This document shows, piece by piece, positions 1,570 through 22,219 of a stretch of 22,475 bases of DNA (position 1 is the first letter of the stretch; each line of letters starts with the position of its first letter). The DNA comes from a virus. The position numbers and the translations under genes were made by a program. Location: positions 1 through 22,475 of IMG/VR virus record IMGVR_UViG_3300035430_000374; one strand, written 5' to 3'. Under the pieces are notes generated by a model, which saw only the letters and a list, made by a program, of their open reading frames with translations, was not told the origin of the DNA and searched no databases.

Positions 1570-1570
1570 C

Positions 1571-1724: not shown

Positions 1725-1730
1725 GTGTAA
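1725..1730 (+). promoter_or_regulatory. GTGTAA motif, decides the start at 1739
   Basis: AAAAAGTGTAA lies eight bases (AACACATT) before ATG 1739. No Shine-Dalgarno sequence intervenes. The same hexamer at the same spacing precedes four other genes, so I take 1739, not the upstream in-frame GTG 1667, as the start. Confidence 0.55.
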
Positions 1731-1738
1731 AACACATT

Positions 1739-3088
1739 ATGTTCGCAGGCTCAGAGGAAACCTTTATAATTTTGCAAAATACTTTGCTGACAGGAATAAC
1801 GGATGTATCGTTTGATTATTCGGTTCAAGAAGAGGCGGTTCTTCTATTGGCGAATAGGGGAATAAATCGAAAGATTAATAAACCCCATGTCGCAAACTGC
1901 TCAATAACGAAGAAATATCTGGGAAGAGATTTCTTAAATGAGTTGACTGGATTTGTTGGTCTATCTGGACAATTCATTTATGGGCAAGATGCTTTGAATT
2001 TTACAGACGCAGCGATTTCAAGGTATCAAATAAAGATGAATGCAACTCAACCGCCAGAGGTTAATGTTGACTTGAAGATTTATGGTGATTTAAAACCAAC
2101 AACAAGTTTAAGAAAATCTACGGCGCAACAAGACGAAGAGTTTAGAGATTTAGATATTGATTGTGTTAGCTTGAACTTTATGGGAAAAAATTCTCCCGTT
2201 ACTGAATTCAACTTTTCTGCGGATTTTGACTGTAAGCCAACTTATGAAATCGAATCAACAAAATCTTCTGCTGTAAAAATATTTACCCCAGTCAAATATG
2301 CCGCATCCGCAAAAATAGAAATGACGGAGCAGGAATACGAAGACATGACTGGATTGTTTAGCACGGAAAATTTTGATAAAAGCTTTTCTTTTATTTTTGA
2401 TGATCGAAAGGCTGCATACAGAGTACAGGCGGGGTTAGACAGGCTTTCTTCTTATGCTGACAGCGGTCTTGCAACGGGTGAATATTATGCTCTTTTAAAT
2501 TTTGATACTGGATCAATGAGGCTTAATAATTATTCATTTGGGTCTTTTGGCTTAAGCTCTCAAAATATTAGCATCTCGCCCAAAGATACGATTGAGTTGT
2601 CTGTCAATTATAACGGATACGGCACAGACTTGCCACAAGGCGTGGCTATAAGCTCTCCAACAGGAGTAATTATATCGGATTTGCTGAAATCATTTAACTC
2701 TGGGGTAGATGCAGTCATTGAAGATTTTTTAGAACTTTTAAGCTCTCCTGGGGGAGTTACAGGACGAGATTTCGAAAGGTTGGAAACTGGGGATTATCCT
2801 TCAGCTCCTGCGCACTTTTTCCCTTTTATTAATGTGTACTATCCTCAAATTGTTAATTTCGAAAGCCAAAGCACTGGAGCCACCAATGACAATCTTTACG
2901 CTCTAGGCGTTGGAGCAGCAGGAGATATTAGCGATTATGACGTTCATGATTTTGAATCAATATCAACTGGCGCTTTTAATATTTTAGACTTTGATTACTA
3001 TATTAATTTTGAATATTTTGATTTTGAATCTACTGCAACTGGAAGCTTTACTAGCAATATTACTTATCTGGGAACTGGAATAATATAA
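1739..3088 (+). CDS. Tail-tube-like virion protein with C-terminal FExxxTG repeats (449 aa)
   Basis: No named family is recognised directly. By eye the N-terminal half aligns with the major tail protein encoded at 17083-18219. A conserved YLGxxF motif (KKYLGRDFLNELTGF against SYYLGDGFNEQALQF) is followed by strands YQIKMNA..PPEVNVDLKIYG against YSLEASV..IPTISVSFEG. A later stretch, LNNYSFGSFGLSSQNIS, lines up with LKLDSESFSSSIGPNKT. This suggests a tail-tube fold, perhaps a minor tube, baseplate-hub or tail-tip variant. The C-terminus has four [D/N]FExxxTG repeats, beginning at bases 2768, 2855, 2948 and 3020. The GTGTAA motif before the ATG groups it with late virion genes. An in-frame GTG at 1667 would add 24 Lys-rich residues and is less likely. 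The fold is an inference. Confidence 0.75.
   Translation: MFAGSEETFIILQNTLLTGITDVSFDYSVQEEAVLLLANRGINRKINKPHVANCSITKKYLGRDFLNELTGFVGLSGQFIYGQDALNFTDAAISRYQIKMNATQPPEVNVDLKIYGDLKPTTSLRKSTAQQDEEFRDLDIDCVSLNFMGKNSPVTEFNFSADFDCKPTYEIESTKSSAVKIFTPVKYAASAKIEMTEQEYEDMTGLFSTENFDKSFSFIFDDRKAAYRVQAGLDRLSSYADSGLATGEYYALLNFDTGSMRLNNYSFGSFGLSSQNISISPKDTIELSVNYNGYGTDLPQGVAISSPTGVIISDLLKSFNSGVDAVIEDFLELLSSPGGVTGRDFERLETGDYPSAPAHFFPFINVYYPQIVNFESQSTGATNDNLYALGVGAAGDISDYDVHDFESISTGAFNILDFDYYINFEYFDFESTATGSFTSNITYLGTGII
2768..3049 (+). repeat. Four [D/N]FExxxTG repeats in the protein C-terminus
   Basis: The repeats read DFERLETG (from 2768), NFESQSTGA (2855), DFESISTGAF (2948) and DFESTATGSF (3020). They are spaced 29, 31 and 24 codons apart, with aromatic and Asp-rich linkers. 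The DNA has diverged between copies, so this is a protein-level repeat and not a recent duplication. Confidence 0.7.
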
Positions 3089-3114
3089 TTCACCCGAAAA
3101 ATATATAAAAAAAA

Positions 3115-3120
3115 GTGTAA
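3115..3120 (+). promoter_or_regulatory. GTGTAA motif before 3129 gene
   Basis: AAAAGTGTAA is followed by eight bases (ACAAAATC) and then ATG 3129. There is no Shine-Dalgarno sequence. The element lies in a 40-base gap after the previous stop codon. Confidence 0.55.
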
Positions 3121-3128
3121 ACAAAATC

Positions 3129-4010
3129 ATGGCAGGAGGGACTATATACCAAAAATTAATCACAAGCGGGACACAGGGAACTGGAGACAAGTCTTTGATC
3201 ATCGAACCAAATTATGCTTATCAGGTTCCTTTTTCGTTTGGAGATAATTGGAATGAGATTATTATTGGCGGATTTATAAGTTTCGTGGCTGCTGGAGCTG
3301 GTAATGAAAATGTTGGATTAAATGATAATGACACATTCGATACTGGGGGAAGCGATGCAGACGGAACAAACGATACAATCAACTGGATAGGGATTGTAAG
3401 AAATGCCCAAACAAAAACATTGCCCCTTGATGCAGCCAACCAAGGTTTCGTGGGTCATATATCAGATAGAATTAGATTTGATAATAACGCCTCAAACATT
3501 TACAACAAGCTTGAATGGGAGCCTCTTTCTGATGGTCACGCTTATGGGGTTTCGGCTTACGGGGCAAATTTTCTCTCATCTGGAGATATTTCGCAGGGGA
3601 CCGCAACATTCTCCGACGCTGGGAACATTTTAGCGATTGGTTTAAAAAATTCTGATGCTCTTAGTTATGCGAGCCCAGAGGACAGTGATCGTTTTTGCGC
3701 TTACTTTGGAATGAAATTTACTGTCATCGACAAGGGTCTTTCAACACAAAAGATAAAAATGCAAATGTGCACCAATGGTAATCATGCTATTTCAGTACCC
3801 TCTACTAACATTAGTGATCCTAGTTTTGAAGAATTGAAAAAATTAATGGACGGGGACCACGAAATTTCTACTGTAACAAATGATTTAACTGGTTTGACGT
3901 TTAACAATGGTTCTAGTGCATATAATTTGCCAGACGCTTTCTTCTACTATAATGCTTTTACAGAATTCAGACCAAGAATTCATGCATGGGCGATTAAAAA
4001 ACTTTCTTAA
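3129..4010 (+). CDS. Probable virion protein, unknown (293 aa)
   Basis: I do not recognise this family. The protein is soluble, rich in Gly, Asn, Asp, Ser and Thr, and has no signal peptide or membrane segment. The composition (for example VAAGAGNENVGLNDNDTFD) fits beta-rich phage fibre or tail-tip proteins. The C-terminal part (RFCAYFGMKFTVIDKG, then FFYYNAFTEFRPRIHAWAIK) is more hydrophobic and probably a compact domain. It follows the tail-tube-like gene, has the same GTGTAA start signal at the same spacing, and precedes PhoH. A receptor-binding or fibre-associated role is a guess from context; I see no collagen-like or known adhesin repeats. ATG 3129 fits the motif spacing. Confidence 0.7.
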   Translation: MAGGTIYQKLITSGTQGTGDKSLIIEPNYAYQVPFSFGDNWNEIIIGGFISFVAAGAGNENVGLNDNDTFDTGGSDADGTNDTINWIGIVRNAQTKTLPLDAANQGFVGHISDRIRFDNNASNIYNKLEWEPLSDGHAYGVSAYGANFLSSGDISQGTATFSDAGNILAIGLKNSDALSYASPEDSDRFCAYFGMKFTVIDKGLSTQKIKMQMCTNGNHAISVPSTNISDPSFEELKKLMDGDHEISTVTNDLTGLTFNNGSSAYNLPDAFFYYNAFTEFRPRIHAWAIKKLS

Positions 4011-4016
4011 GTGTAA
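4011..4016 (+). promoter_or_regulatory. GTGTAA motif before the PhoH-like gene
   Basis: The stop codon TAA (4008-4010) runs directly into GTGTAA, then ten bases (TAGCTTTTGA), then ATG 4027. The whole intergenic region is 16 bases, so this element is nearly all of it. Confidence 0.5.
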
Positions 4017-4026
4017 TAGCTTTTGA

Positions 4027-4719
4027 ATGTCCAATAAACTTGAGTTCAAGCAATTGAATCACAAAATAAGATTCAAGGAACGTAAATTTAAATTTACCGA
4101 AAATCAAATAGATTTTTTAAAGACTGCGTTTGACCCCCAAACAAAACTTCTTTTTTTATCTGGCCCCGCTGGCACCGCAAAGACTTATATGGCCGCATAT
4201 TCGGCTTTGCAGATGATGGTGGACTCAGACCTTGAAAAAGGTATTCTATACGTCAGAAGCATAGCTGAGAGCGCACAGAGAAGCATGGGAGCGTTGCCAG
4301 GAGATCTAAAAGAAAAGTTCGCCGTTTTTGCGTCTCCATTTTATGATAAGCTGGATGAAATTTTATTAACTCAAGACATTAAAGTTTTGCGTGAAAAAGG
4401 AATGTTTGATTGTATCCCAGTCAACTATGTTAGAGGATCAAACTGGAATGACACAATCGTTATAATTGACGAGGCTCAAAACTTTTCATACAGCGAACTC
4501 CTTACCGTTTTAACAAGAATTGGAGAAAATTCAAAAATAATTATCTGCGGAGACGCCATGCAGAGTGATATTAATAATAGTGGATTTGCCCACATATTTA
4601 ATGTTTTTAATGATGAGGAGTCCCAAAACAATGGAGTTGTGTGTAAACAATTTACCGCTGATGATATAAAAAGAAGCGAAATTGTAAAATTTATTGTATC
4701 TAAGCTAGAGAAAAATTAA
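4027..4719 (+). CDS. phoH: PhoH-like P-loop ATPase (230 aa)
   Basis: The sequence shows Walker A GPAGTAKT (residues 46-53) and Walker B IVIIDEAQ (144-151). The family-specific stretches are also there: GALPGDLKEKF (88-98), YVRGSNWND (134-142) and LTRIGENSKIIICGD (162-176). These are the signature blocks of the PhoH family, whose members hydrolyse ATP and have been linked to RNA processing. The protein is close to the size of a bare PhoH core, with about 45 extra N-terminal residues and no added nuclease domain. PhoH genes are frequent in phages, often from marine or freshwater sources, and their role in infection is unsettled. Here it opens a run that goes on to transcription and packaging genes. 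ATG 4027 is set by the GTGTAA spacing. Identification of the family is confident; the role is not. Confidence 0.9.
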   Translation: MSNKLEFKQLNHKIRFKERKFKFTENQIDFLKTAFDPQTKLLFLSGPAGTAKTYMAAYSALQMMVDSDLEKGILYVRSIAESAQRSMGALPGDLKEKFAVFASPFYDKLDEILLTQDIKVLREKGMFDCIPVNYVRGSNWNDTIVIIDEAQNFSYSELLTVLTRIGENSKIIICGDAMQSDINNSGFAHIFNVFNDEESQNNGVVCKQFTADDIKRSEIVKFIVSKLEKN

Positions 4720-4727
4720 AATAAATT

Positions 4728-4733
4728 TATAAT
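4728..4733 (+). promoter_or_regulatory. TATAAT box six bases before ATG 4740
   Basis: AATTTATAAT is followed by AAATTT and ATG. The TATAAT-like box close to ATG recurs at 9544, 14276 and 15479. It could be a -10 element giving a nearly leaderless mRNA, but the local sequence is very AT-rich and chance is a real alternative. Confidence 0.3.
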
Positions 4734-4739
4734 AAATTT

Positions 4740-5054
4740 ATGGCGATTAAATTTTGTACAGATTGTGGCAAGAAGGTTGAATACAAATTCAGTCCTCCCA
4801 AGTTTTGTTCTGATTGCGGGACACCTATGGGCGTTGTCAACACTAACGAGGCTTCTGCTCCCCAAAAAGCTTTTAAAAAAATTGAAACTTTAAACGATGA
4901 TGAGACGGATGCAGAGTTCGTTCCACATATTTCCAAACTAGAATACGAAATCGAAAACTTTGGCTCAAGTGTACAGCAAACAATGGGCTCTTTGGCTGGT
5001 AGATCGGCCCCAAGACGAAAAAACAGAACAGTAAGAGATATCGACAATTTGTAA
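4740..5054 (+). CDS. Zinc ribbon protein (104 aa)
   Basis: An N-terminal zinc ribbon is plain: CTDC (Cys6, Cys9) and CSDC (Cys23, Cys26), a CxxC-x13-CxxC arrangement. The remaining 75 residues are acidic in the middle and end in a basic segment (SAPRRKNRTVRD). Zinc ribbons of this kind bind nucleic acid or protein partners; the family is not otherwise recognised. Its TAA stop overlaps the ATG of the sigma factor by one base (TAATG), so the two are probably translated in a coupled way. That pairing makes a co-factor for late transcription conceivable, much as T4 needs accessory proteins for its late sigma factor. This is inference only. Confidence 0.75.
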   Translation: MAIKFCTDCGKKVEYKFSPPKFCSDCGTPMGVVNTNEASAPQKAFKKIETLNDDETDAEFVPHISKLEYEIENFGSSVQQTMGSLAGRSAPRRKNRTVRDIDNL

Positions 5055-5725
5055 TGTATTCATTTGAAGACAAGCTTAAGGAAATAGAAGCTGCCCTCGA
5101 AAGAAAACGTTCCAAATGGGATCTCGATGCGGTTGCATATGTTGACTACGATGACATTAAACAAATCATCATGTCGCACATCTATAAGAAGTGGCACCTG
5201 TGGGATCAGTCAAAGCCGATTGAACCGTGGTTAAGTAGGGTAGTATCCAATCAATTTAAAAATCTACTTAGAAATCATTACGGAAATTACGCACGACCAT
5301 GTCTTCGTTGCAAGTTTAATTCTGGCGGCGAAAGCTGTTTAAAAACAAAAAGCGGCAATCAAGACACCTCCTGTTCTGATTATAGAGATTGGGCGCAAAA
5401 GAAAAAGGCCGCCTACGACATAAAACTGGCGGTAACAATGGAAAATCACATGAATGAAATTGGAGAAAGAAAAGATACTTTTCTAGATTTAGAACTTGCA
5501 TCGAAAAAACTACAAAACGAAATGAGTTCACACTTAAATAGTAGGCATTTTATAGCTTTCAAGATGCTTTTCATACAAAACAAATCAGAAGAAGAGGTGG
5601 CGAAATATCTGGGTTTTAAAACCAGCGAAAAAAAACGTTCGGCTGGGTATAAGCAAATCAAAAACTTAAAAAAGATTTTTCAAGAAAAGGCTAAAGAAAT
5701 TATTAAAAATAAGGATATTATATGA
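5054..5725 (+). CDS. Phage RNA polymerase sigma factor with zinc-binding insert (223 aa)
   Basis: Residues about 30-76 match sigma70 region 2 as in ECF and phage late factors: an acidic helix DYDDIKQIIMSHIYKKW, then WDQSKPIEPWLSRVVSNQFK and LLRNHY. Residues 155-210 look like region 4, a helix-turn-helix (NKSEEEVAKYLGFKT) that would contact DNA or an activator. Between them is a four-cysteine cluster (Cys83, Cys86, Cys95, Cys107), probably a zinc knuckle. The length is about that of small phage late sigma factors such as T4 gp55, though I claim no close relation. It should redirect host RNA polymerase to phage promoters. The GTGTAA elements in this window are the obvious candidate targets. The gene is coupled upstream (TAATG) and downstream (ATGA). 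Confidence 0.8.
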   Translation: MYSFEDKLKEIEAALERKRSKWDLDAVAYVDYDDIKQIIMSHIYKKWHLWDQSKPIEPWLSRVVSNQFKNLLRNHYGNYARPCLRCKFNSGGESCLKTKSGNQDTSCSDYRDWAQKKKAAYDIKLAVTMENHMNEIGERKDTFLDLELASKKLQNEMSSHLNSRHFIAFKMLFIQNKSEEEVAKYLGFKTSEKKRSAGYKQIKNLKKIFQEKAKEIIKNKDII

Positions 5726-6750
5726 TAAAACTTACAGACCATCAAAAAGAATTTATCTTAAATATATTCAAGGACGAGCCGAACATCATCAATATCACAA
5801 AAAAAGTATTTAATGATGATAAACTTGACGGTAGATCGAAAGAGGGGCGGGCTGTATCAAAATTTCTGGCAAAAAATGGCATGAAGGCCAAAACTACCAA
5901 GCGACCAAAGTCGGAAGACGTTGAGCTTTCCGAAGAGCAGATAGAGCAGGTTTTAGTGATGGAAAAAGATGGAATGAATACGTCCCAAATAGCAGATCTG
6001 CTTTTTAACAAAGAAGTAAAGAGGCTCAGCAATGAGTGGAGGGCGGTTAATGAAATACTAAATCAAGAAAAAGAAGAAACCCCATCTGGCGGATATGCGT
6101 CGCCACAAGCCCTATCTAGGATCATCAAAAAAATTAATGATTCCACTGGTTATGGTTTAGAGGAAGATAGAATGTCTCGGAATCAAAAACATTGTTGTGA
6201 CAAGCTCCGAATCAATCTTAGCAATTCAAGGTTTGTAGCTATTGTAAATAATTATACCAACCCAAGAGATAAGGAATTATTTGAACAAGAGTTTATTCGA
6301 TTAACTTGGGATAAACCAGACCTTACCGCAGACGAATTGAATCTATATATGAACGTCGCTAAAGAAATCATCAATCTTGAATTGATTACGGGTCACTTGC
6401 AAAAACTAAACGATATGTTTGAAAGCGCAGATGACCAAGATGAAATGACGGTGCGTCTGGCTGAAATTATTAAGGCTAAAAGCTCGGAATATCATCAATG
6501 CGAGTCTCGCATCGAAAATCTTACAAAAAAGCTTCAGGGAGACCGTGGGGCACGTTTAGCCAACAAGCAAAAGGAAACAGCGTCGTTTCTTTCCATCGTT
6601 CAGCTTTTCCAGGAAGAGGAGGAGAGGAAAAATATGGTTCGAATAGCAGAAATGCAAAAACAAGTTATAAAGGAAGAAGCTCAAAGACTTGAAGGCATGG
6701 CCGCTTGGAAGGCTCGTGTTTTAGGTATTGGTATTGAAGATGTCTTATAA
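5722..6750 (+). CDS. DNA-binding coiled-coil protein, candidate small terminase subunit (342 aa)
   Basis: The N-terminal 116 residues hold two similar helix-turn-helix-like units, about 22-52 (ITKKVFND...EGRAVSKFLAKNG) and 86-116 (IADLLFNK...NEWRAVNEILNQ). The rest is mainly helical and charged, with a likely coiled coil around residues 220-330. An N-terminal DNA-binding part followed by an oligomerising helical part, two genes before the large terminase, is what a small terminase subunit would look like. I see no sequence signature that proves it, and a transcription regulator or DNA-binding recruiter is also possible. Its ATG overlaps the sigma stop (ATGA). AAGGA at 5711-5715 gives a fair Shine-Dalgarno at six-base spacing. 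Confidence 0.55.
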   Translation: MIKLTDHQKEFILNIFKDEPNIINITKKVFNDDKLDGRSKEGRAVSKFLAKNGMKAKTTKRPKSEDVELSEEQIEQVLVMEKDGMNTSQIADLLFNKEVKRLSNEWRAVNEILNQEKEETPSGGYASPQALSRIIKKINDSTGYGLEEDRMSRNQKHCCDKLRINLSNSRFVAIVNNYTNPRDKELFEQEFIRLTWDKPDLTADELNLYMNVAKEIINLELITGHLQKLNDMFESADDQDEMTVRLAEIIKAKSSEYHQCESRIENLTKKLQGDRGARLANKQKETASFLSIVQLFQEEEERKNMVRIAEMQKQVIKEEAQRLEGMAAWKARVLGIGIEDVL

Positions 6751-7657
6751 ATGTAAAGAATGTGGATCAGATTTTGAATCTGAAAAATCACTACACAGTC
6801 ATCTTAAGGCTCATAAGATGTATGTGGCGGATTACTATGTAAAACACTACCCACGATTTAACAAGCTTAACGGCAACCCTCTTCCGTTTAAGAAAAAAGA
6901 AGAATACTTCGAGAATGATTTTATTAATCGATCTCAACTTGTAGAGTGGTGCAAATCGGCGCCGAGTAAAGAAGTAAAAGAATATATAGTTGAGTTGGGC
7001 AAAAGAAGAATTAAGGAAAAAAAATATACCCACGCCCCATTTTATTTAGAGCTGATCAAGAGACAGTTGCCAGACTTGGATGTATATAAGGAACACTTTG
7101 GGACATACACAAATGCTTGCGAAGCTATGGGCGTTAAGCCCATATTTTACAAGGGTATGCCCAAAGAATTTTATGAAGATGTCGATGCCGAGGTTTTGGT
7201 AGATACGAGAGAGCAGCAGCCATTACAATTTCCTAAATCTAAAATTTTAAAATTGGATTTTGGAGATTACACGCTGGGTGGAAATAATTTTTCTAATACC
7301 TTCGTAGATAGAAAAAGTTCGGGAGACTTTTTGTCAACGTTCGGGGGACAGGCAGATAGATTTAGAAGAGAAATGCAAAGATGTGTGGAATTAGATAGCT
7401 ACATGTATATTGTTGTGGAAAAGCCTTTGGCGACAATAGAGAAGGAAGCTATATTCACGAAAGGAAGAAGAGCTCCTAAATTGGGCTGGGTCTTTTCTAA
7501 TTTGATTTCAATTCAGCATGAGTTTGCTGGCAACTGTCAATTTGTGTTTACCGACAATAGAAAGCATAGTCAAGAAATAATTCCCAAATTGCTATATTTG
7601 GGCGAAAAGCTTTGGAGCGTAGATATACAATATTTTTTAGATAAGGAGGAACGATGA
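6740..7657 (+). CDS. C2H2 zinc finger-ERCC4 nuclease fusion (305 aa)
   Basis: Residues 3-25 form a canonical C2H2 finger: Cys5-x2-Cys8-x12-His21-x3-His25. A linker of mixed helices follows. Residues about 150-300 are an ERCC4-type (XPF/Mus81) nuclease domain, with VDTREQ (154-159), FGDYTLGG (174-181), FVDRKSSGDF (188-197) and RFRREM (207-212). These supply the acidic and lysine residues of the GDx(n)ERKx3D catalytic signature. The enzyme should cut branched or flap DNA, and the finger may guide it to target DNA. Lying directly before the large terminase and overlapping it by four bases (ATGA), it may clear branched replicative DNA for packaging, as T4 endonuclease VII does. ATG 6740 is preferred to TTG 6728; it overlaps the previous stop by 11 bases. 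Confidence 0.85.
   Translation: MSYKCKECGSDFESEKSLHSHLKAHKMYVADYYVKHYPRFNKLNGNPLPFKKKEEYFENDFINRSQLVEWCKSAPSKEVKEYIVELGKRRIKEKKYTHAPFYLELIKRQLPDLDVYKEHFGTYTNACEAMGVKPIFYKGMPKEFYEDVDAEVLVDTREQQPLQFPKSKILKLDFGDYTLGGNNFSNTFVDRKSSGDFLSTFGGQADRFRREMQRCVELDSYMYIVVEKPLATIEKEAIFTKGRRAPKLGWVFSNLISIQHEFAGNCQFVFTDNRKHSQEIIPKLLYLGEKLWSVDIQYFLDKEER
7643..7650 (+). promoter_or_regulatory. Strong Shine-Dalgarno site for the large terminase
   Basis: AAGGAGGA stands three bases before ATG 7654. It is the clearest ribosome binding site in the window and shows that the host ribosome uses the usual anti-Shine-Dalgarno sequence. The lack of such sites behind the GTGTAA motifs is therefore meaningful. Confidence 0.8.
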
Positions 7658-9504: not shown

Positions 9505-9530
9505 AAAGTTAGAAAAGTCACTTTTAAAAA

Positions 9531-9536
9531 GTGTAA
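9531..9536 (+). promoter_or_regulatory. GTGTAA motif and TATAAT box before the 9554 gene
   Basis: AAAAAGTGTAA is followed after seven bases by TATAAT (9544-9549) and then ATG 9554, so the motif-to-ATG distance is 17, longer than at other sites. It lies in the only real gap between the large terminase and the head genes and so may open the head operon. Confidence 0.5.
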
Positions 9537-9553
9537 CTAACTTTATAATACTT

Positions 9554-9709
9554 ATGCCAATACCAAAACCAGGAAAAAAGGAAGAAAAAAAACAATTCAT
9601 GTCTCGTTGCTTGGGCGACAAAACCATGAGAAAAGAATTTAAAGATATTAAACAAAGAATTGCGGTATGCATGACTTCATTTACAGATAAGGATAAGAAA
9701 GATGCCTAA
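9554..9709 (+). CDS. Small conserved phage protein before the portal (51 aa)
   Basis: The 51-residue product begins MPIPKPGKKEEKKQFMSRCL and ends with a VCMTSF/Asp-Lys segment. This pattern (MPxPKP, a Lys/Glu stretch, SRC, then a Cys-containing turn) resembles a short domain seen in many phages near portal and head genes; I recall the pattern but cannot name a function. It is too short for an enzyme, so a head assembly or DNA-binding role is speculation. The ORF can be extended upstream into the terminase gene, but ATG 9554 matches the GTGTAA/TATAAT signal and the conserved N-terminus. Its stop overlaps the portal start by eight bases. Confidence 0.65.
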   Translation: MPIPKPGKKEEKKQFMSRCLGDKTMRKEFKDIKQRIAVCMTSFTDKDKKDA

Positions 9710-13606: not shown

Positions 13607-13638
13607 AAATAAAATATAAAAATTTAACTAAAAAAATT

Positions 13639-14262: not shown

Positions 14263-14275
14263 TTAGAAAGATATT

Positions 14276-14281
14276 TATAAT
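14276..14281 (+). promoter_or_regulatory. TATAAT box abutting the capsid gene ATG
   Basis: AGATATTTATAAT is followed directly by ATG 14282. AGAAAG at 14265-14270 is a weak ribosome-binding candidate. With no space for a start point before ATG the box is unlikely to be a promoter for this gene; AT-richness that favours open initiation is an alternative. Confidence 0.25.
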
Positions 14282-15406: not shown

Positions 15407-15428
15407 TAAAAACAATTACTAAATTTAA

Positions 15429-15458
15429 GGGTCGCCTTTCGGGGCGGCCCTTTTTTTT
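15429..15458 (+). terminator. Rho-independent terminator after the capsid gene
   Basis: GGGTCGCC (15429-15436) pairs with GGCGGCCC (15443-15450) with one G-T pair around loop TTTCGG, followed by eight T. It is the strongest plus-strand terminator in the window and ends the head operon. Confidence 0.92.
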
Positions 15459-15484
15459 GAATTTTTATAATTTTGTTTTATAAT
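15457..15484 (+). promoter_or_regulatory. Possible promoter after the capsid terminator
   Basis: TTGAAT (15457-15462), a 16-base gap and TATAAT (15479-15484) resemble a sigma70 promoter and directly follow the terminator. ATG 15491 comes six bases later, so the transcript would be almost leaderless. Confidence 0.4.
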
Positions 15485-15490
15485 ATTTAT

Positions 15491-16156
15491 ATGGAAGATC
15501 TATCTAAAAAAATTAACGAAGAGGGGCAAAAATACCAAGAACTGCCTGACGCAATTCCTGCACCAAAAGAAAAGGTGCAAGAATTTATGGAAAAAGTAGA
15601 AAACAACTTGGAAGAGAGTCATATTGCAACCGCAGTAGAAAACGATGAGATTAATAATGATGAAGCTCAAAAAGAAGAGGTTTTAGAAAACCTGGAATAT
15701 GCAGACGGAAAAGAAAGGGACGAAGTAGACCTAATTGAAGAGCAGGAAAAGATTTACGGGACAGACACCCTTAGCCCATTTAAAACCGCTGACGTACGTG
15801 TATTTAGGCGGAGACTTGATGCAATGTCTAGGGAGCAAATGAATGCAATGGCAGAAAGAGTCGCTGCGAGAATATATTCTAGTGAGAACGACCAAAAAAC
15901 AGAGCTTTTGCAGGCATTTCACTCTTGGGTCTCTAGGAATGGCTCCTTCCAAACTTCGGCAACAAAAAAAGCAGAAAAGGGCGCATTAAGTGCGGCATTT
16001 GAAGGTTCTATTGATGTTAAAGAACTAGAAGAAAAACTAAAATCAAAAACACTTTCTGAGCTTCAAGAAACTGCCGCAAGATTAGGGTTTAATCCTGGTT
16101 TTGAGAGAGACAGAATTATTGGTTTGGTGGTTAAGGAATATCAAAGACAAGCGTAA
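15491..16156 (+). CDS. Acidic protein with Rho-N/SAP-like C-terminus (221 aa)
   Basis: The first 100 residues are very acidic and helical (for example NNLEESHIATAVENDEINND). The middle (DVRVFRRRLDAMSREQMNAM) is more basic and amphipathic. The C-terminal 40 residues (LKSKTLSELQETAARLGFNP, then RDRIIGLVVKEYQ) resemble the short helical Rho N-terminal/SAP/LEM-type fold used to bind nucleic acid. I do not recognise the full protein. It is expressed as a separate unit after the capsid terminator, before the head completion gene, so a role in the filled head or at the neck is possible. The ATG at 15491 follows a TATAAT-type box; an upstream TTG in frame is less likely. The next gene has a similar C-terminal domain. 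Confidence 0.7.
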   Translation: MEDLSKKINEEGQKYQELPDAIPAPKEKVQEFMEKVENNLEESHIATAVENDEINNDEAQKEEVLENLEYADGKERDEVDLIEEQEKIYGTDTLSPFKTADVRVFRRRLDAMSREQMNAMAERVAARIYSSENDQKTELLQAFHSWVSRNGSFQTSATKKAEKGALSAAFEGSIDVKELEEKLKSKTLSELQETAARLGFNPGFERDRIIGLVVKEYQRQA

Positions 16157-16185
16157 ATAATTATACTTAAGCGGGGTTGGTTTTG

Positions 16186-16191
16186 GTGTAA
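16186..16191 (+). promoter_or_regulatory. GTGTAA motif before 16200 gene
   Basis: TTTTGGTGTAA is followed by eight bases (TATACTAT) and ATG 16200, with no Shine-Dalgarno sequence between. This copy has TTG instead of the usual AA before the hexamer. Confidence 0.5.
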
Positions 16192-16199
16192 TATACTAT

Positions 16200-16481
16200 A
16201 TGGAAAATCAATCAAAAGATATTTTAGAAGACTTGACCTTCATTAACGGAAAAGAAGAAGTTGAGGAGGTTGTTGCGCCAACGAAAAAAACTGCAAAAAA
16301 GGCCACAAAAAAGGCAACGAAAAAAGTTGCCGAACCCAAGGCAGAGCCAGTTAAAAAATATTCATTGGAGGAGCTTAGCACAAAGGGTTCCACACAACTT
16401 GTGAACATATGCAGAGAACTGGGAGTTCCAGCCGCTCGTCGCAAACCACAAATGATACAAAATATTCTCAATAACAGTTAG
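16200..16481 (+). CDS. Lys/Ala-rich DNA-binding-like protein with Rho-N/SAP-like end (93 aa)
   Basis: Residues 1-25 are acidic. Residues 26-52 form a histone H1-like Lys/Ala/Thr tract (KKTAKKATKKATKKVAEPK), and residues 54-93 form a Rho-N/SAP-like helical domain (YSLEELSTKGSTQLVNICRE then VPAARRKPQMIQNIL). Both parts suggest nucleic acid binding. Similar Lys-rich tracts appear in bacterial histone-like proteins and in some phage internal proteins. A role in condensing packaged DNA or anchoring it at the neck would fit the position, but this is inference. The tract is coded by short A-rich repeats (16285-16330) that may vary in length between relatives. Its stop lies one base before the next start. 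Confidence 0.72.
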   Translation: MENQSKDILEDLTFINGKEEVEEVVAPTKKTAKKATKKATKKVAEPKAEPVKKYSLEELSTKGSTQLVNICRELGVPAARRKPQMIQNILNNS

Positions 16482-16482
16482 C

Positions 16483-16947
16483 ATGGCAAATATAGGAGAT
16501 TTAGCTAATTCAATCTATGTGAATGAATTTGATTCTACTGGAGTAACGGTAGAGTCAATTTCTGGTTGGCTTGAAAACAATATTGGTCAACTTAATAATG
16601 TTATTTATACCAGTTTTTCTGGAGTAAGTGGCGAGGTTTCTGGGCTAAATCTTGAAGAGCAAAGCATCTTTAAAGAACTTTACCTATATCACTATTATAC
16701 CAAACAAACCAGAAACACCATTCGTGGTATTGCTAATGACACAAATGGCAACATTCTTAGCGTCAGAGACGGCGATAACGCTATTACTTTCGTAAACAAG
16801 AACGAAGTGTCCAAAGTGTATAAAACTCTCGCTCAGGACGCAAATAACAAGCTTATGGACTTGGTGGCTAGATACAATAGTTATCAAGCCAGCCCAAGGC
16901 AAGTCGGAGGAATTGAGTCGAGGGCACAAGCATCTGACACTAACTAA
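16483..16947 (+). CDS. Head completion/adaptor-like protein (154 aa)
   Basis: The sequence pattern is familiar from phage neck proteins: MANIGDLANSIYVNEF, a SGWLENNIGQLNNVIYTSF helix, EEQSIFKELYLYHYYTKQTR, a short beta hairpin, and NKNEVSKVYKTLAQDANNKL followed by the PRQVGG end. I read it as the ring protein that sits under the portal after packaging (head completion/adaptor, gp6/gp15-like helical bundle). It is soluble and mostly helical, as expected. It starts one base after the previous stop, so it is probably translated by reinitiation. The order capsid, accessory, adaptor is standard; the connector partners that would normally follow are on the opposite strand from 20177 down. Confidence 0.75.
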   Translation: MANIGDLANSIYVNEFDSTGVTVESISGWLENNIGQLNNVIYTSFSGVSGEVSGLNLEEQSIFKELYLYHYYTKQTRNTIRGIANDTNGNILSVRDGDNAITFVNKNEVSKVYKTLAQDANNKLMDLVARYNSYQASPRQVGGIESRAQASDTN

Positions 16948-17014
16948 TTATCCCCAGAGTATATCTCTGATAGCGTGATCTCGAAAGAGGTTGCGCTTTT
17001 TTGTGCAATAAAAA

Positions 17015-17040
17015 ACCCCTCCGATTTGGAGGGGTTTGTT
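17015..17040. terminator. Bidirectional terminator between convergent operons
   Basis: ACCCCTCC (17015-17022) and GGAGGGGT (17028-17035) form a perfect 8-bp stem with loop GATTT. Reading minus, the stem is followed by a run of six T including the closing base; reading plus it is followed by TTGTTT. It therefore stops the capsid/adaptor transcript and the inverted tail transcript. Smaller hairpins flank it: CAGAG/CTCTG near 16955, TTGCGC/GTGCAA near 16991-17008, and AGGGG/CCCCT between 17048 and 17079. Confidence 0.88.
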
Positions 17041-17082
17041 TAGAATTAGAGGGGCTTCTTAGCTGTTCGCTCCACCCCTAAA

Positions 17083-18219
17083 TTATGATCTTGCGTTTCC
17101 GAGAACGGTTCCAGTGTTAGATCCAGAGAAGAATACGTTATTAGCAGTATCGTCTGGGCCACCAATTGAAAGCGAGAAGCTAAGATCAACAGTCTTATTT
17201 GGTCCGATGCTGGAGCTAAAGGACTCGCTGTCGAGCTTAAGATTTTTCATCTTATAGGAGGCTCTTGGTGTGCTGGAAACGTCAGAATCCTTGAAGGTGA
17301 ACTGAATTTCGGAAATGAAATCATCAGAATTAATGATATCAGTCAAAGCTCTTGTTTGAGTTTCAGAAACAATAGCGGAAACAGAAAGTGTCGGGGTGAT
17401 TGGGAAATCAACAACACGAGCAAAGGAGAAACGGGTTCCGAGTCTGTCAATTGGAGTTCTTCCAAGAGGAACGGACATCGAAATGCTTTGTACGTGTGCT
17501 CCGCCATCTCCATCAAGGTCAACAATTGCGTCGCCGTCTGCATTTGCAAAAGAAAGGGTAATATCTCCTGGGCGAAGGGCCGAAGGAATATTTGCTCCTG
17601 TACCTTGAGAGGCGGCTGGGAAAACAACTCCAAGGGCTTGATTTGCAAGAACTGTACCAGCTTCTGGGTCGATACCAACACCAGTAATGCCAGAATATCC
17701 AGCAGCGCCACCAGATACACCAGCAGTAGCGTTCATGTTGGTTCCTTCGAAGGATACAGAAATAGTTGGGATGCTGCCTACGGAAGCTTCAAGACTGTAG
17801 TCTGTAAGGAATGCATTTCCAATGCCAATTGTGCTGTATCCAGAACCTGCGGTATTGAAGTTAGCGTCTTTACCTTCTTCTGCAGTCAAAATGTAGAAGT
17901 TATTTCCACTTGTAGAGGCGATCTGCCCAGAAATAAAACCAGCATTAAAGCTAGTGCCATTCTTGAACTGAAGCGCTTGCTCGTTGAAGCCGTCGCCAAG
18001 ATAATAGGACATGTCAAATGAAACAGTAGGAGCCTCAAGAATGATGGCTTCGAGTCTAGAAAGTTGACCAAACTGATTCACGTCTTGACGTGCGACATTA
18101 AATGAATAATTAGCAGATTGGACTCTGCGAAGTTGTACGTGTTCGTTAGCGCCAGTAGAATTTACTGTTTGGCTGGTGAACAGCGCATCTGATTGATAAA
18201 TAACTCTATTTTTAGCCAT
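17083..18219 (-). CDS. Major tail (tube) protein (378 aa)
   Basis: The protein is long, soluble and beta-rich, with low charge and many Ser, Gly and Thr residues: the character of a tail tube subunit. Diagnostic stretches are YSFNVARQDVNQFGQLSRLE near the N-terminus, then VSFDMSYYLGDGFNEQALQF, YSLEASVGSIPTISVSFEG, the central GGAHVQSISMSVPLGRTPID, and the C-terminal KMKNLKLDSESFSSSIGPNK followed by VDLSFSLSIGG. It is the last gene of the minus-strand neck/tail block, just before a terminator, and its leader carries the CTGTAA variant motif. Both fit high late expression. A sheath protein is less likely because it is short and lacks a protease-like domain. A second gene, at 1739, seems to share this fold. 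Confidence 0.78.
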   Translation of the reverse strand: MAKNRVIYQSDALFTSQTVNSTGANEHVQLRRVQSANYSFNVARQDVNQFGQLSRLEAIILEAPTVSFDMSYYLGDGFNEQALQFKNGTSFNAGFISGQIASTSGNNFYILTAEEGKDANFNTAGSGYSTIGIGNAFLTDYSLEASVGSIPTISVSFEGTNMNATAGVSGGAAGYSGITGVGIDPEAGTVLANQALGVVFPAASQGTGANIPSALRPGDITLSFANADGDAIVDLDGDGGAHVQSISMSVPLGRTPIDRLGTRFSFARVVDFPITPTLSVSAIVSETQTRALTDIINSDDFISEIQFTFKDSDVSSTPRASYKMKNLKLDSESFSSSIGPNKTVDLSFSLSIGGPDDTANNVFFSGSNTGTVLGNARS

Positions 18220-18234
18220 AATATTTTATTGTAT

Positions 18235-18240
18235 TTACAG
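18235..18240 (-). promoter_or_regulatory. CTGTAA variant motif before the major tail protein
   Basis: The minus strand reads AAACTGTAAATACAATAAAA and ends at ATG 18219, 15 bases after the hexamer. It resembles the element before the internal scaffold start. TGTAAATA here is one base away from the T4 late promoter TATAAATA. Confidence 0.4.
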
Positions 18241-18261
18241 TTTTTTTGTTTGAATGTGAAA

Positions 18262-19110
18262 TTAAGAACGGGGAAATCTAATAGTGGAAACCTCAAAGTC
18301 TATAAATCCAACTTGAATGTCTCCAGGAACTTTGCTTTGAGCCCTTTCAGAAAATTTTGAAACAGTGACATCTTCTATATAATATGGGTTGCTTGCGGAA
18401 TAAGAATTGTTAAGCGAGGTGTAGTTGTATGAACCGTTTTTTATGTCGCCGTATTCCGTGGTAGGATGTCCAGAAAAGGGTATTTTTGAAAAAGATTTTC
18501 TAGCAGAATCTGCAAATATTGAGAGAACTCCATCCAGTTGATATGAATTTTCAGCAAGAACCACTGCTTTGATTGTGTTTGTGGTTTTGTCTTCCCCACC
18601 AAAAGAAAATCCCTCATTTGTCATGAACTCTGAGTTTATGAAAATTGCAGGTGTCATTTGGTCATAGGGTTTAACTCCAGTCGGGGTTTTTGAATATCTG
18701 CTATTTAATTCAAATTTATTTTCAAGAATTAAATCTTCTTCCGTTTCATTTGTAAGGTAAATATTGAAATCTTTTACAGCGAATGTACCACTAAGCGTTT
18801 CGCTTGTCCCAAAAGCTCCACCAGTTTCTATAATTCTTCCGTTTTCAAAATCAAAAATTATATCGTCTGTTCTGTCGTATCCATTAAAAGATGTTGGAAT
18901 GACTGGATTTGTATCCCCAGAAATTGAAGAGTCATTTACCCATTGTTTGTAGGGGCTTGCATAGGCTTTGTAGGAGCTTGGAAGCCTTGAATCGTTGTCA
19001 TAATAAAGAAAACCTGTTTGGTTCGAATAAGCTTCGCCCTTCTGAAGCAGTTCGTGATCGAACCAAAGCATAAAGCTTGTCATTAATTCATGTTGATATT
19101 GGGGCTTCAT
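18262..19110 (-). CDS. Neck/tail protein, unknown family (282 aa)
   Basis: No family is recognised with certainty. The N-terminus (MKPQYQHELMTSFMLWFDHE) is helical and amphipathic. The rest is acidic, aromatic and probably beta-rich, with stretches such as DDIIFDFENGRIIETGGAFG and a C-terminal PGDIQVGFIDFEVSTIRFP. It lies directly before the major tail protein and after the tail completion-like gene, the slot usually filled by a tail terminator or a tail completion protein. It is longer than most terminators. The GTGTAA motif ten bases before its ATG overlaps the stop codon of the upstream gene. I am sure it is a gene; the neck/tail role is by position. Confidence 0.7.
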   Translation of the reverse strand: MKPQYQHELMTSFMLWFDHELLQKGEAYSNQTGFLYYDNDSRLPSSYKAYASPYKQWVNDSSISGDTNPVIPTSFNGYDRTDDIIFDFENGRIIETGGAFGTSETLSGTFAVKDFNIYLTNETEEDLILENKFELNSRYSKTPTGVKPYDQMTPAIFINSEFMTNEGFSFGGEDKTTNTIKAVVLAENSYQLDGVLSIFADSARKSFSKIPFSGHPTTEYGDIKNGSYNYTSLNNSYSASNPYYIEDVTVSKFSERAQSKVPGDIQVGFIDFEVSTIRFPRS

Positions 19111-19120
19111 AAATTATTAT

Positions 19121-19126
19121 TTACAC
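19121..19126 (-). promoter_or_regulatory. GTGTAA motif before 19110 gene, overlapping a stop
   Basis: On the minus strand the stop TAG of the upstream gene shares its G with the motif (TAGTGTAA). Ten bases (ATAATAATTT) then lead to ATG 19110. No Shine-Dalgarno sequence is present. Confidence 0.5.
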
Positions 19127-19719
19127 TACAATACTTGCAGGTTCTCAAATTCTTTTTTATACTTTTTTAAAAAAGCCGAAATGTAAGAAGTGTTTTTAAA
19201 TCTAGTTCCTCCTTTTCTGACTCTTCTTGGTGATTGTATGCCAAGTCCAGATCTACTGTTATCTGTTTCTTTTCTTAGGTAAAAACCAAGCCCAGATATT
19301 CCCGTCTCTATTCCTTTTGCCCAGCTTCTCCCTGCCGCCCAAGGCATGGGAGTAACATCAAAAATGTCTTTTGGGGTTGGAATATTAATTCTGTAGTTTA
19401 TTCTTTTCTTGGACGCATTTACATAATCAAAGGTTGTACTTTCTAAAATCCTGAGTATTGGCTCAATCGGATCGTCTCCAGCTTCAAAACCAATAAACGA
19501 AAACAAATTTCCGCTGCCTCCGCCAAGTGTGCCGCTTATGTTTTTTGCTCCTATGCCGCCTTTTATTTCTATTGTTACGGGGTGGTTTAGAAATTCGGCT
19601 ATCATTGCATTTTTCTTCTTTTGGAAAGCTGCCTGAAAAACCTTTCTGACTTGCGGTCTTGATTCGAGTGCTAAATTTTTATTTAATTCTGCATCCAGTT
19701 CTAATTTTAGGGACGACAT
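19126..19719 (-). CDS. Tail completion/connector-like protein (197 aa)
   Basis: The protein starts with a charged helix (MSSLKLELDAELNKNLALES) followed by a KVFQAAFQKKKNAMIAEFLN segment and a Gly-rich stretch (GGIGAKNISGTLGGGSGNLF). It ends in a basic region with SPRRVRKGGTRFKNTSYISA and a helical KKYKKEFENL tail. The order helix, Gly-rich beta part, basic tail resembles HK97 gp10-type neck/tail completion proteins, though the match is by shape and position only. It shares one base with the stop of the upstream gene (TAATG), so translation is coupled, and it is followed by the next GTGTAA-led gene. Confidence 0.65.
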   Translation of the reverse strand: MSSLKLELDAELNKNLALESRPQVRKVFQAAFQKKKNAMIAEFLNHPVTIEIKGGIGAKNISGTLGGGSGNLFSFIGFEAGDDPIEPILRILESTTFDYVNASKKRINYRINIPTPKDIFDVTPMPWAAGRSWAKGIETGISGLGFYLRKETDNSRSGLGIQSPRRVRKGGTRFKNTSYISAFLKKYKKEFENLQVL

Positions 19720-20177
19720 TATTCTTCAATTGGTGCTAGATAAAAATGATAATATTGTGGGCCAAAGATTCCAGTTGGATTTCCCTTGCTAGTTATTGTG
19801 TATTTTCTGCCCTCAAATTCACATCTTTTTGCTTCTTTCAAAATCGCAAATCCGTCTGCGTCCACAGTAATTCTAACAGAGCCGTCAATCAATTCTATTC
19901 CTAATTGTGAATCTATATTGCCGTCCGATAGATTTTGCTCCCTGGAGTTGATATACTTAATTCTGGCTTTAACGGTGTGGCTAACGATGGTTTTTTGTGT
20001 TGATTCGGATCCGCTTGAGGTTTTGCCGTAAATGCCATTAAATTCAGAGCTGGCGGCGATCAAAATCTTTTTCCCTTCTTCATAAACCGTAATGTTTCTG
20101 GCAAAGGTTTCGTGAATGTCGTCAATAATCGCTTTGATTGTGTTTTTTTGAGAGTCTGATATTAGTGAGGTCGGCAT
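19719..20177 (-). CDS. Head-tail connector/head closure-like protein (152 aa)
   Basis: The N-terminal helix (SDSQKNTIKAIIDDIHETFA) is followed by a beta-rich body with the stretches ARNITVYEEGKKILIAASSE, HTVKARIKYINSREQN and GSVRITVDADGFAILKEAKR. It ends in a short strand-rich tail GIFGPQYYHFYLAPIEE. An N-terminal helix plus a small beta barrel, a mention of a fixed EFNGIYG loop, and the place as first gene of a neck/tail operon fit a head closure protein (SPP1 gp16-like), which plugs the adaptor ring. The evidence is moderate. It opens the inverted block, and its ATG lies eight bases from a GTGTAA motif that is part of a perfect inverted repeat. Confidence 0.68.
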   Translation of the reverse strand: MPTSLISDSQKNTIKAIIDDIHETFARNITVYEEGKKILIAASSEFNGIYGKTSSGSESTQKTIVSHTVKARIKYINSREQNLSDGNIDSQLGIELIDGSVRITVDADGFAILKEAKRCEFEGRKYTITSKGNPTGIFGPQYYHFYLAPIEE

Positions 20178-20183
20178 GTCTAC

Positions 20184-20205
20184 TTTTACACTTTTTTGTG
20201 TAAAA
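20184..20205. promoter_or_regulatory. Divergent GTGTAA pair forming a perfect inverted repeat
   Basis: TTTTACAC (20184-20191), six T and GTGTAAAA (20198-20205) form a palindrome with an 8-base arm. The minus copy lies eight bases from ATG 20177. The plus copy lies 23 bases from ATG 20227, which has its own AAGGA site. I read it as two back-to-back late promoter elements that drive the inverted neck/tail block one way and the tail assembly genes the other. A hairpin-based terminator is unlikely, because the A/T-rich stem is short. Confidence 0.6.
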
Positions 20206-20226
20206 CAATACAGGTATAAGGATATT

Positions 20227-20517
20227 ATGATTGCAAAAGAATTTTTGTATGATCGTTCTGATCATCACATCAGGCACTTGTTTAAGTCTTTTTTGCAGAC
20301 TCTTGAAGAGATGCAGAAAGTTCATGAAATTAATTTTGGAAAGCTGTATGATAGCTTACCAAGCGAATATCATGATTTAATTAACATGTCCGATTATTTT
20401 GATGAAGATTATTACGATATATATAGAAAAAGAATTTTAGATATTGGAAATTCTGTTTTGAGAGATTATAATAGTGAGTTAGAAAATCTAACCGTAGAAT
20501 TCAGATTTAAACAATAA
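20227..20517 (+). CDS. Unknown small acidic protein (96 aa)
   Basis: I do not recognise it. The protein is helical, with many Asp, Glu, Tyr and His residues (YDRSDHHIRHLFKSFLQTLE then SDYFDEDYYDIYRKRILDIG). It has no membrane segment. It precedes two tail assembly genes and the tape measure, so it may be a small tail protein or an assembly factor. The ATG at 20227 follows AAGGATATT, a fair Shine-Dalgarno at usual spacing. An in-frame ATG at 20176 is excluded because it would lie upstream of the promoter-like palindrome. Confidence 0.65.
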   Translation: MIAKEFLYDRSDHHIRHLFKSFLQTLEEMQKVHEINFGKLYDSLPSEYHDLINMSDYFDEDYYDIYRKRILDIGNSVLRDYNSELENLTVEFRFKQ

Positions 20518-20520
20518 GGC

Positions 20521-21249
20521 ATGGAAAACATTTACGAATTTACATTAAACAAAAAAGTAAAAAAACAGGTAGAAACAAAAAGAACCTCAAAAGACGGAGA
20601 AGAGGAAACTGTTCTTTCTAGTCGCACGGTCAATTCGCCTGTAAAATTTATTATTAAAAAGCCGACAAGAAGGCTGGCTGACGAGGCTGAGCTTTTTTAC
20701 TCAATTGAGTTGAGTAAAAGTATTAAGATGGGAATTGTTACAAAAGCCATGCTTATTAAAAAATATGCAGATAACGGAGGGGCGTTGACTGAAGAAGAGT
20801 CAAGGCAACTTCTAAAATCCGTGAAGAAGCTTCATGATTTAGAAAATGAATATAAGCTTATAGAGGGCGCAAAAAATAAAGCAGAAAAGAAGAGATCCGA
20901 GGAGGTCTTGGTTGAAATAGTGACTTTAAGAAGAGAGTTGCAAGATCTTGAATCCTCTTTGCAATCTGTTTACCAGCACACTGCTGACGCAAAAGCGGAA
21001 CAAAAAACTTTGCTTTGGTATGCAATCAATCTTTCCAAAATGATTGGAGAGGATGGAGAGTCGCAAGAATTTTTTGAGGGTCTAGACTTTGAGGAAAAAT
21101 TAGAGGATTTGTACAATAAATACGAAACCGAAGAGGGTTTTGATTTTGAGGCCGCTTCTATCATTTGCAGGGTGGTTGGATATTGGTTCTACAATCAAGA
21201 AGCTAAGCCTGAAAAAATAAAAGAGTTCATCGAAAATGGTGGGCAATGA
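20521..21249 (+). CDS. Candidate tail assembly chaperone 1 (242 aa)
   Basis: The N-terminus (MENIYEFTLNKKVKKQVETK) has the look of a small beta domain. Residues about 95-165 form a charged coiled coil (NKAEKKRSEEVLVEIVTLRR), followed by a helical part, GLDFEEKLEDLYNKYETEEG. It lies two genes before the tape measure, the standard place for the chaperones that coat the tape measure until the tube is built. It begins three bases after the previous stop. AAGG is the only ribosome-binding hint. It overlaps the next gene by 14 bases in another frame, which recalls the paired chaperone arrangement of many tails. Assignment is by position and shape. Confidence 0.6.
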   Translation: MENIYEFTLNKKVKKQVETKRTSKDGEEETVLSSRTVNSPVKFIIKKPTRRLADEAELFYSIELSKSIKMGIVTKAMLIKKYADNGGALTEEESRQLLKSVKKLHDLENEYKLIEGAKNKAEKKRSEEVLVEIVTLRRELQDLESSLQSVYQHTADAKAEQKTLLWYAINLSKMIGEDGESQEFFEGLDFEEKLEDLYNKYETEEGFDFEAASIICRVVGYWFYNQEAKPEKIKEFIENGGQ

Positions 21250-22213
21250 TAAAAATTTAGAAATAGTTTCAGAAATATTGCAAGGAGTTACTGTCGTAGA
21301 TAGCTCTTTTGGTTCGTTATATTTTAGGCATCTTTCTCAAGCCCAACAGAGAGAGGCTATTTCGGAATCCAAACTTTTTGAAAGGGAGGCTCTGTCTAAG
21401 GGGCTTTTGTCCAAAGAACAGTCGTTGCGTGAAATAATTGACCAAGAAATGTGGTCGGAAGAAAACGAACAACAGATTAAAAATTTAAACACGGACATAG
21501 AAAATTTAAAAAAAATAAATTCTCAAGTTTTTTTGCCTTCAAAAAAGAAAGAAATAGAAAAAAGTTTGAAAGAAAAACAAAATACTTTGTTTTCTATAGA
21601 ATCTGAAAGAGAGGAATTATTGGGTTTAACTGTCGAAAAATATTCAAACAACAAGATACAAAAAAATATTGTAAGTAAAATATTGTTTTACGATAGAGAG
21701 TTTAAGAAAAGTGTTTTTGATGAATTATATGTAAACGAAGCCTTTAAGGAGGTCGAAATATATAAAATGCAAAAAGATTTTTTTGAAAAATTTGATGACA
21801 CGAATATTTCTACCGCAGTCTTGAGCGATTATTTTTCCATGTATCTGCCGTTTTGTGAGGATGTTTTGGGCGTTTTTGGAAAGCCTCTTAGGGATTTGAC
21901 GAGTTATCAATTAAAGCTTATTTCATTTGGTAGATACTTTTTAAATATATTCAAAAACACAACAAAAGAAATACCAGAAAATGTAGCAAAAGATCCAGAG
22001 CTTTTGATTGGTTTTTATCAAAATCAAAGAGATGATTCGGGGAAACGTGGCTCCACTTCGGGGGATGGTGGATCAACGTATTTTGGGGCGACAAAGGAAG
22101 ATATTGAGGCGATCAAAAGAGAAGATGAAAATGCAGTCGATTTATCTGAAGAAATAAAGAAAAAGGGAGGATCCCTGAATATGAAGCAAATGATGGAATT
22201 GCACGGACTTTAA
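21236..22213 (+). CDS. Candidate tail assembly chaperone 2 or tail protein (325 aa)
   Basis: The protein is highly charged and helical. A long coiled coil runs over about residues 60-135, between QQIKNLNTDIENLKKINSQV and SIESEREELLGLTVEKYSN. A compact middle follows (VLSDYFSMYLPFCEDVLGVF), then a Gly-rich linker (KRGSTSGDGGSTYFGATKED) and a short C-terminal helix NMKQMMELHGL. It is coupled to the previous gene by a 14-base overlap and precedes the tape measure by 14 bases. In other phages the second tail assembly chaperone is made by ribosomal frameshifting; here the second frame has its own ATG. No known domain is recognised. Confidence 0.65.
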   Translation: MVGNDKNLEIVSEILQGVTVVDSSFGSLYFRHLSQAQQREAISESKLFEREALSKGLLSKEQSLREIIDQEMWSEENEQQIKNLNTDIENLKKINSQVFLPSKKKEIEKSLKEKQNTLFSIESEREELLGLTVEKYSNNKIQKNIVSKILFYDREFKKSVFDELYVNEAFKEVEIYKMQKDFFEKFDDTNISTAVLSDYFSMYLPFCEDVLGVFGKPLRDLTSYQLKLISFGRYFLNIFKNTTKEIPENVAKDPELLIGFYQNQRDDSGKRGSTSGDGGSTYFGATKEDIEAIKREDENAVDLSEEIKKKGGSLNMKQMMELHGL

Positions 22214-22219
22214 GTGTAA
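22214..22219 (+). promoter_or_regulatory. GTGTAA motif before the tape measure
   Basis: The stop TAA of the previous gene runs straight into GTGTAA, and eight bases (TATTCTGT) lead to ATG 22228. The 14-base gap consists of this element and its spacer. Confidence 0.55.

Follow-up and report, generated by a model that had tools for sequence, protein, structure and literature searches.

A GTGTAA box beside start codons as the probable late-gene promoter of an uncultured family of aquatic phages

What is the function of a hexamer, GTGTAA, that stands a few bases before start codon after start codon on both strands of a phage fragment? We addressed this question for a 22.5-kb (22,475 nt) IMG/VR virus fragment, IMGVR_UViG_3300035430_000374, hereafter called the window, in which an initial annotation had proposed that a phage sigma factor reads GTGTAA as a lone -10-like box and that the resulting late mRNAs are leaderless or nearly so. 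Every available sequence test supported this core proposal: no -35 element was seen, a purine lies at a fixed distance from the box, Shine-Dalgarno sites occur only with long-spacer copies, a noncoding RNA carries the box, and the window encodes a sigma factor. We favor, with a probability of roughly 0.8, a one-box phage promoter that would be read by a phage sigma factor resembling the extracytoplasmic function (ECF) group, most likely the protein designated SigA here, with RNA starting at a purine 7-8 nt downstream and mRNAs that would be mostly leaderless. Throughout, our conclusions are drawn from sequence, and 'late' is assigned from gene content and from separation from sigma70-type early promoters.

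The GTGTAA box in the window and across the family

The window contains 15 copies of GTGTAA, compared to a shuffled mean of 7.6; the total of 13 given initially had missed copies at 7267 (minus) and 14907 (plus). Of the 15, nine have a start codon no more than 30 nt away, compared to 0.23 expected (Poisson P 3e-12), and all nine were found at the positions and distances first assigned to them, whereas the number of copies internal to genes (five) fits chance. No hexamer is more enriched than GTGTAA in the 30 nt next to 27 window starts, and it occurs 8-10 nt before ATG at 7/26 window starts, whereas 2000 dinucleotide shuffles averaged 0.04 and never exceeded 2. The start-proximal copies and a tenth, at 1677, are as follows, with orthologue counts that include the window.

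1725..1730, plus strand: GTGTAA box 8 nt before ATG 1739; 27/27 orthologous upstream regions; predicted RNA start 1739
3115..3120, plus strand: GTGTAA box 8 nt before ATG 3129; 15/15 orthologues
4011..4016, plus strand: GTGTAA box 10 nt before the phoH-like gene at 4027 (PhoH PF02562); 19/34 orthologues
9531..9536, plus strand: GTGTAA box 17 nt before the small gene at 9554 and the portal gene; 14/14 orthologues at 17-18 nt
16186..16191, plus strand: GTGTAA box 8 nt before ATG 16200; 8/8 orthologues
19121..19126, minus strand: GTGTAA box 10 nt before ATG 19110 (minus); 9/13 orthologues at 8-10 nt
20186..20191, minus strand: GTGTAA box 8 nt before ATG 20177 (minus); 7/7 orthologues; half of the divergent pair TTACACAAAAAAGTGTAA
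20198..20203, plus strand: GTGTAA box 23 nt before ATG 20227; 7/7 orthologues at 18-24 nt
22214..22219, plus strand: GTGTAA box 8 nt before ATG 22228; 7/7 orthologues
1677..1682, minus strand: GTGTAA box that heads a conserved predicted noncoding RNA; retained in 21 relatives besides the window

Relatives were collected in two sets, a near set of 80 viral contigs fetched with the terminase protein (86-93% identity) and a distant set of 160 further contigs reached through two distant capsid proteins from metagenome-assembled genome (MAG) contigs. Start codons came from a simple gene caller, and the genes of relatives were called independently. These contigs are fragments, and the absence of a gene from any of them, in all of the gene-presence counts below, is weak evidence.

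The enrichment at 8-10 nt, whose absence genome-wide would have refuted the proposal, was found both in the window and in the independent contigs. GTGTAA was the top hexamer upstream of starts in the window and in contigs G001, G002, G003, G004, and G012, with 19/38 copies near starts in G001 (P 2e-22), and was second, behind TATAAT, in G005. Contigs were also sorted into six bins according to how identical their capsids are to that of the window. GTGTAA came first in 5/6 bins, including those with capsids <50% identical, and 262/511 copies were near starts in the 40-50% bin, a 42-fold enrichment; in the remaining bin, which comprises four loci, the lead goes to TGTGTA and GTGTAT, which are overlapping words. 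In 30 large contigs, a pattern of box, 8-10 nt spacer, and ATG matched 221 times, compared to 29 matches for the reversed pattern. The box is kept upstream of the same orthologous genes although their proteins drop to 35% identity.

The genes that bear the box include those for the tape measure, tail proteins, and fibre assembly. The gene at 22228 is assigned as a tape-measure gene by its G001 orthologue, which matches tail tape-measure families, and elsewhere in the family it is the portal gene that the box directly precedes, by 18-25 nt (64/78). Genes inside operons lack it, as seen for terminase (0/78), sigma factor (0/50), and capsid (0/36). GTGTAA, which precedes the first genes of structural-gene blocks, is very probably the late-gene on-switch of the family.

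Spacing of the box and the predicted start of RNA

We defined d as the number of nucleotides between GTGTAA and ATG and counted positions such as +14 from the first G of the box. Among 1239 non-redundant starts, 38 copies stood at d = 8, 20 at d = 9, and 17 at d = 10, with a tail to ~34 and 2 copies in all at 0-7, whereas Shine-Dalgarno words in the same starts were centered at 6-10 nt. A one-sided distribution of this kind is expected of a promoter whose RNA starts ~8 nt downstream. In every class with d >= 10, a purine occupied +14 in 80-89% of cases, compared to ~50% at positions just upstream, and C was almost absent. At d = 8, the purine at +14 coincides with the A of ATG, and a pyrimidine preceded it in 96%; at d = 9, the purine stood at +13. 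A strong Shine-Dalgarno sequence between box and ATG was found in 0/145 cases at d <= 11 and in 31/71 at d >= 17 (~6 expected), and occurs only where a start at the purine 7-8 nt downstream would leave room for it. In the window, the 8-10 nt spacers contain no Shine-Dalgarno sequence and the large terminase gene has a perfect one (AAGGAGG), both as described initially; the leader that follows the box at 20198..20203 holds an AAGGAT ribosome site, and the Shine-Dalgarno-like AAGG is kept in orthologues. The divergent pair to which this box belongs (TTACACAAAAAAGTGTAA, window 20186-20203) is kept in relatives and joins an apparently leaderless minus-strand transcript to a leadered plus-strand one.

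The box itself is stringent, as GTGTAT alone recurred clearly among the single changes tried. T or A follows the hexamer, then mostly A, and A or T runs stand in front of it. A search for a -35 or other upstream element found no informative column or enriched word beyond these weak A/T runs. In one clade (L107, L155, and L187), the box is often GTGTAT in place of GTGTAA.

The copy at 1677 (minus), which had been set aside as an intergenic stray, is conserved and is predicted to start a noncoding RNA that ends in a terminator.

1565..1668, minus strand: predicted noncoding RNA of ~100 nt with a 5' stem-loop and an intrinsic terminator, beginning after the box at 1677..1682

GTGTAA was invariant in 20/20 distinct aligned sequences of this locus, 5/10 consensus pairs of the RNA structure showed compensatory change, and the window RNA folded better than 200 shuffles (z = -3.2). 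No open reading frame was common to all members, and no Rfam family matched. On a noncoding transcript, a translation signal is not needed.

The preference of the box for start codons could also arise if GTGTAA acted within the mRNA, as a ribosome signal or start-codon enhancer, and both its hugging of start codons and the lack of Shine-Dalgarno sequences with copies at 8-11 nt would fit such a role. We rejected a ribosome-binding signal, and consider any translational role very improbable, on several grounds: copies up to 34 nt away stand alongside Shine-Dalgarno sites, distances are cut off below 8 nt rather than centered, the +14 purine is fixed relative to the box and not to ATG, the noncoding RNA carries the box, and the -10 box of the early promoters described below lies at the same place before ATG as GTGTAA does. 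An origin by chance, or by shared descent of AT-rich upstream DNA, is scarcely credible; the genomes are AT-rich and the contigs related, but shuffles, control hexamers, de-duplication, and conservation at 35% protein identity refute it. From these sequence patterns, we conclude that GTGTAA is a promoter element rather than a ribosome signal.

In the mechanism that we propose, GTGTAA and the (T/A)A after it would make up all that is recognized, a -10-type box spanning roughly -14 to -7, and RNA would begin at the purine 7-8 nt past GTGTAA. At most sites this purine would be the A of ATG or lie 1-3 nt before it, which would make the mRNA leaderless or nearly so, and sites with d >= 17 would have a longer leader, often with a Shine-Dalgarno sequence. 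Transcripts of the class would include those of structural gene blocks and of some other genes, along with a single small noncoding RNA.

Candidate sigma factors

Two genes in the window bear on which protein would read the box, and the stop of one overlaps the start of the other.

5054..5725, plus strand: SigA, a divergent phage sigma factor with region 2, a cysteine-rich insertion, and a weak region 4
4740..5054, plus strand: zinc-ribbon protein gene with weak zinc-ribbon matches; its stop overlaps the SigA start

Homologues of SigA matched Sigma70_r2 in 61/63 cases and region 4 weakly in 7/63; the ECF family has regions 2 and 4 and lacks region 3. An AlphaFold model of SigA (pLDDT 81) had ECF sigma factors as its nearest folds, with weak matches (E 0.03, low TM); one of these, PDB 5or5, is titled as ECF region 2 bound to GTAAAA, a word contained in GTGTAAAA. 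SigA occurs in 27/30 large contigs, and 2/3 of the contigs without it (G023 and G028) end before reaching the position, upstream of the capsid gene, where SigA is usually encoded. The zinc-ribbon protein is possibly a partner of SigA, and the box at 4011..4016 possibly the promoter of an operon of phoH, zinc ribbon, and sigma genes. The cysteine-rich insertion lies between SigA regions 2 and 4, at window 5290-5390.

A second phage sigma factor, SigB, is encoded in 10/30 large contigs (for example G001 47932-48489, minus strand, where its gene overlaps a deoxynucleoside monophosphate (dNMP)-kinase-like gene, and L087:7935-8489). Profile comparison of SigA or SigB with T4 gp55 gave no match, nor did either match phiEco32 gp36. 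No homologue of an RNA polymerase beta-type gene was found in the 30 contigs; a search for T7-type RNA polymerase was uninformative, as its control matched nowhere.

We propose that an ECF-like phage sigma factor, most likely SigA, would bind the host RNA polymerase core and recognize the box without a -35 element; SigA is ranked ahead of SigB because it is near-universal. Several observations weigh against this explanation. No -35 element is seen, yet SigA retains a weak region 4, its gene sits in the late block itself and would need an earlier promoter, contig G026 has the box and no SigA was found there, SigB exists as a second candidate, and a ribonucleotide reductase subunit gene also bears GTGTAA, such that some non-structural genes carry the box.

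The same promoters might instead be read by SigB, with SigA serving another purpose. SigB lies near ssb, ribonucleotide reductase, and the dNMP-kinase-like gene, a setting like that of phiEco32 gp36 and loosely that of T4 gp55, it is found across distant family members, and G026 pairs it with the box; its presence in so many fewer large contigs than SigA tells against it, with the caveat that absence from fragments is weak, and we regard this assignment as unlikely, if well worth considering. More doubtful still is reading of the box by the host's own machinery, either an alternative sigma factor of the host or its sigma70 aided by a phage activator. The box stays the same throughout a very diverse family whose members almost always encode a sigma factor of their own, no -35 element accompanies it, GTGTAA is not a sigma70 -10 hexamer, and no upstream activator sites were seen.

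Early promoters, known systems, and the phage family

Early-looking blocks of small genes, and some genes of the replication block, have TTGAC starting 34-37 nt before ATG (13/115, 16/147, 9/69, and 3/42 starts, with 0.5, 0.7, 0.3, and 0.2 expected). A TATACT-like box ~7 nt before ATG follows, for a layout of TTGACA-N17-TATACT from 35 nt before ATG, and a Shine-Dalgarno sequence was present in 0/30 members of this class in four contigs. The GTGTAA and TTGACA classes are mostly in different genome blocks. In the proposed scheme, early genes would depend on these sigma70-type promoters, which would likewise start RNA at ATG, and the early genes look leaderless. It seems somewhat probable that, in the family as a whole, both early and late programmes run largely on leaderless mRNAs, from promoters set so that RNA begins at the start codon, with the late class also driving a small RNA. 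Blocks of the early class lie at G001 1-9.7 kb, G002 12-43 kb, and G003 30-42 kb. Upstream of the ribonucleotide reductase small-subunit gene, TTGAC and GTGTAA overlap (G001 49551-49588; G004 42217-42254), as if for continuous expression. TATAAT near ATG is doubtful as a third promoter class, as its d distribution is not one-sided; TTTATAAT or TTATAAT is nonetheless conserved close to ATG (window 4722-4739, 9540-9553, 15470-15490, and 14270-14281), at distances that are not promoter-like.

T4 late promoters consist of a single -10-like octamer, TATAAATA, without a -35 element, are read by gp55, and are coupled to replication through gp33 and the gp45 clamp. The class described here shares the single -10-like element without a -35, of similar length and spacing to the start. 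It departs from the T4 consensus, as the last four bases (AATA) agree when W = T and the first four differ, and neither SigA nor SigB has detectable gp55 homology. ECF promoters normally need a -35 element, as for E. coli sigmaE-type factors. The fold of SigA is nearest, weakly, to ECF sigma factors, but no -35 is seen here and SigA bears its cysteine-rich insertion.

The middle and late promoters of phiEco32, read by gp36, have the element tAATGTAtA, with RNA starting 6-8 bp downstream (PMC8948821). As in that system, the promoter here has one element, with TGTA at its core and no -35, and precedes structural genes, early genes are assigned to host sigma70, and, by our proposal, a phage sigma factor acts on the host core; the start here, inferred from the purine peak 7-8 nt downstream, would fall at a similar distance. 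The two differ in that the consensus here is GTGTAAWA, with the TGTA core alone shared, gp36 lacks region 4, and start codons here, including those of the early class, stand at the predicted RNA start. Late promoters of phage 7-11 (GTAAtg-16-aCTA) are used by SaPh711_gp47 (PMC8948821), which resembles the present case in being a phage sigma factor with region 4 that serves late genes; its promoter has two parts, whereas no -35 is seen here.

Leaderless 'TA-led' bacterial genes have a TANNNT -10-like signal ~10-12 bp before the start codon that is read by the housekeeping sigma factor, and our inference of leaderless genes from a signal of this kind, ~10 bp ahead of the start, follows the same study (PMC3160421). 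The GTGTAA class at d <= 11 and the early class both have such a signal ~10 bp before ATG and lack Shine-Dalgarno sequences, although one of them has a phage-specific box. Phage transcripts are often leaderless according to a paper on AR9 (PMC5312081). Among the papers listed by a search for phage promoters with GTGTAA, which covered few subscription papers, none matched this class. Hence the initial description of a new late promoter class holds for the box variant and not for the kind of promoter, as single-box phage promoters are known from T4 (gp55) and phiEco32 (gp36); what is new is the box, the sigma factors, the apparent leaderless use in both classes, the noncoding RNA, and the uncultured family.

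These phages make up a large and very diverse uncultured aquatic family of bacterial viruses. A capsid search of the INPHARED isolate collection found no cultured relative, and the terminase gave partial matches only, ~25% identical. For this abundant family, our analysis provides a readable late-gene switch along with two candidate sigma factors and one candidate small RNA, and the box allows annotation of transcription units with no more than the sequence. A further suggestion is that leaderless mRNAs, in early and late classes alike, can form the basis of a phage lineage, with implications for host ribosomes and for how promoter and start codon become locked together.

An Actinobacterial host, considered through WhiB, was rejected, as no match to WhiB was found, and MAG matches bear the conflicting labels Patescibacteria, Rickettsiales, and Verrucomicrobiales. 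The window also carries five tRNA genes (Arg, Met, Gln, Glu, and Pro) on the minus strand at 311-1506, with what by eye is an HNH-like endonuclease gene among them at 375-1001.

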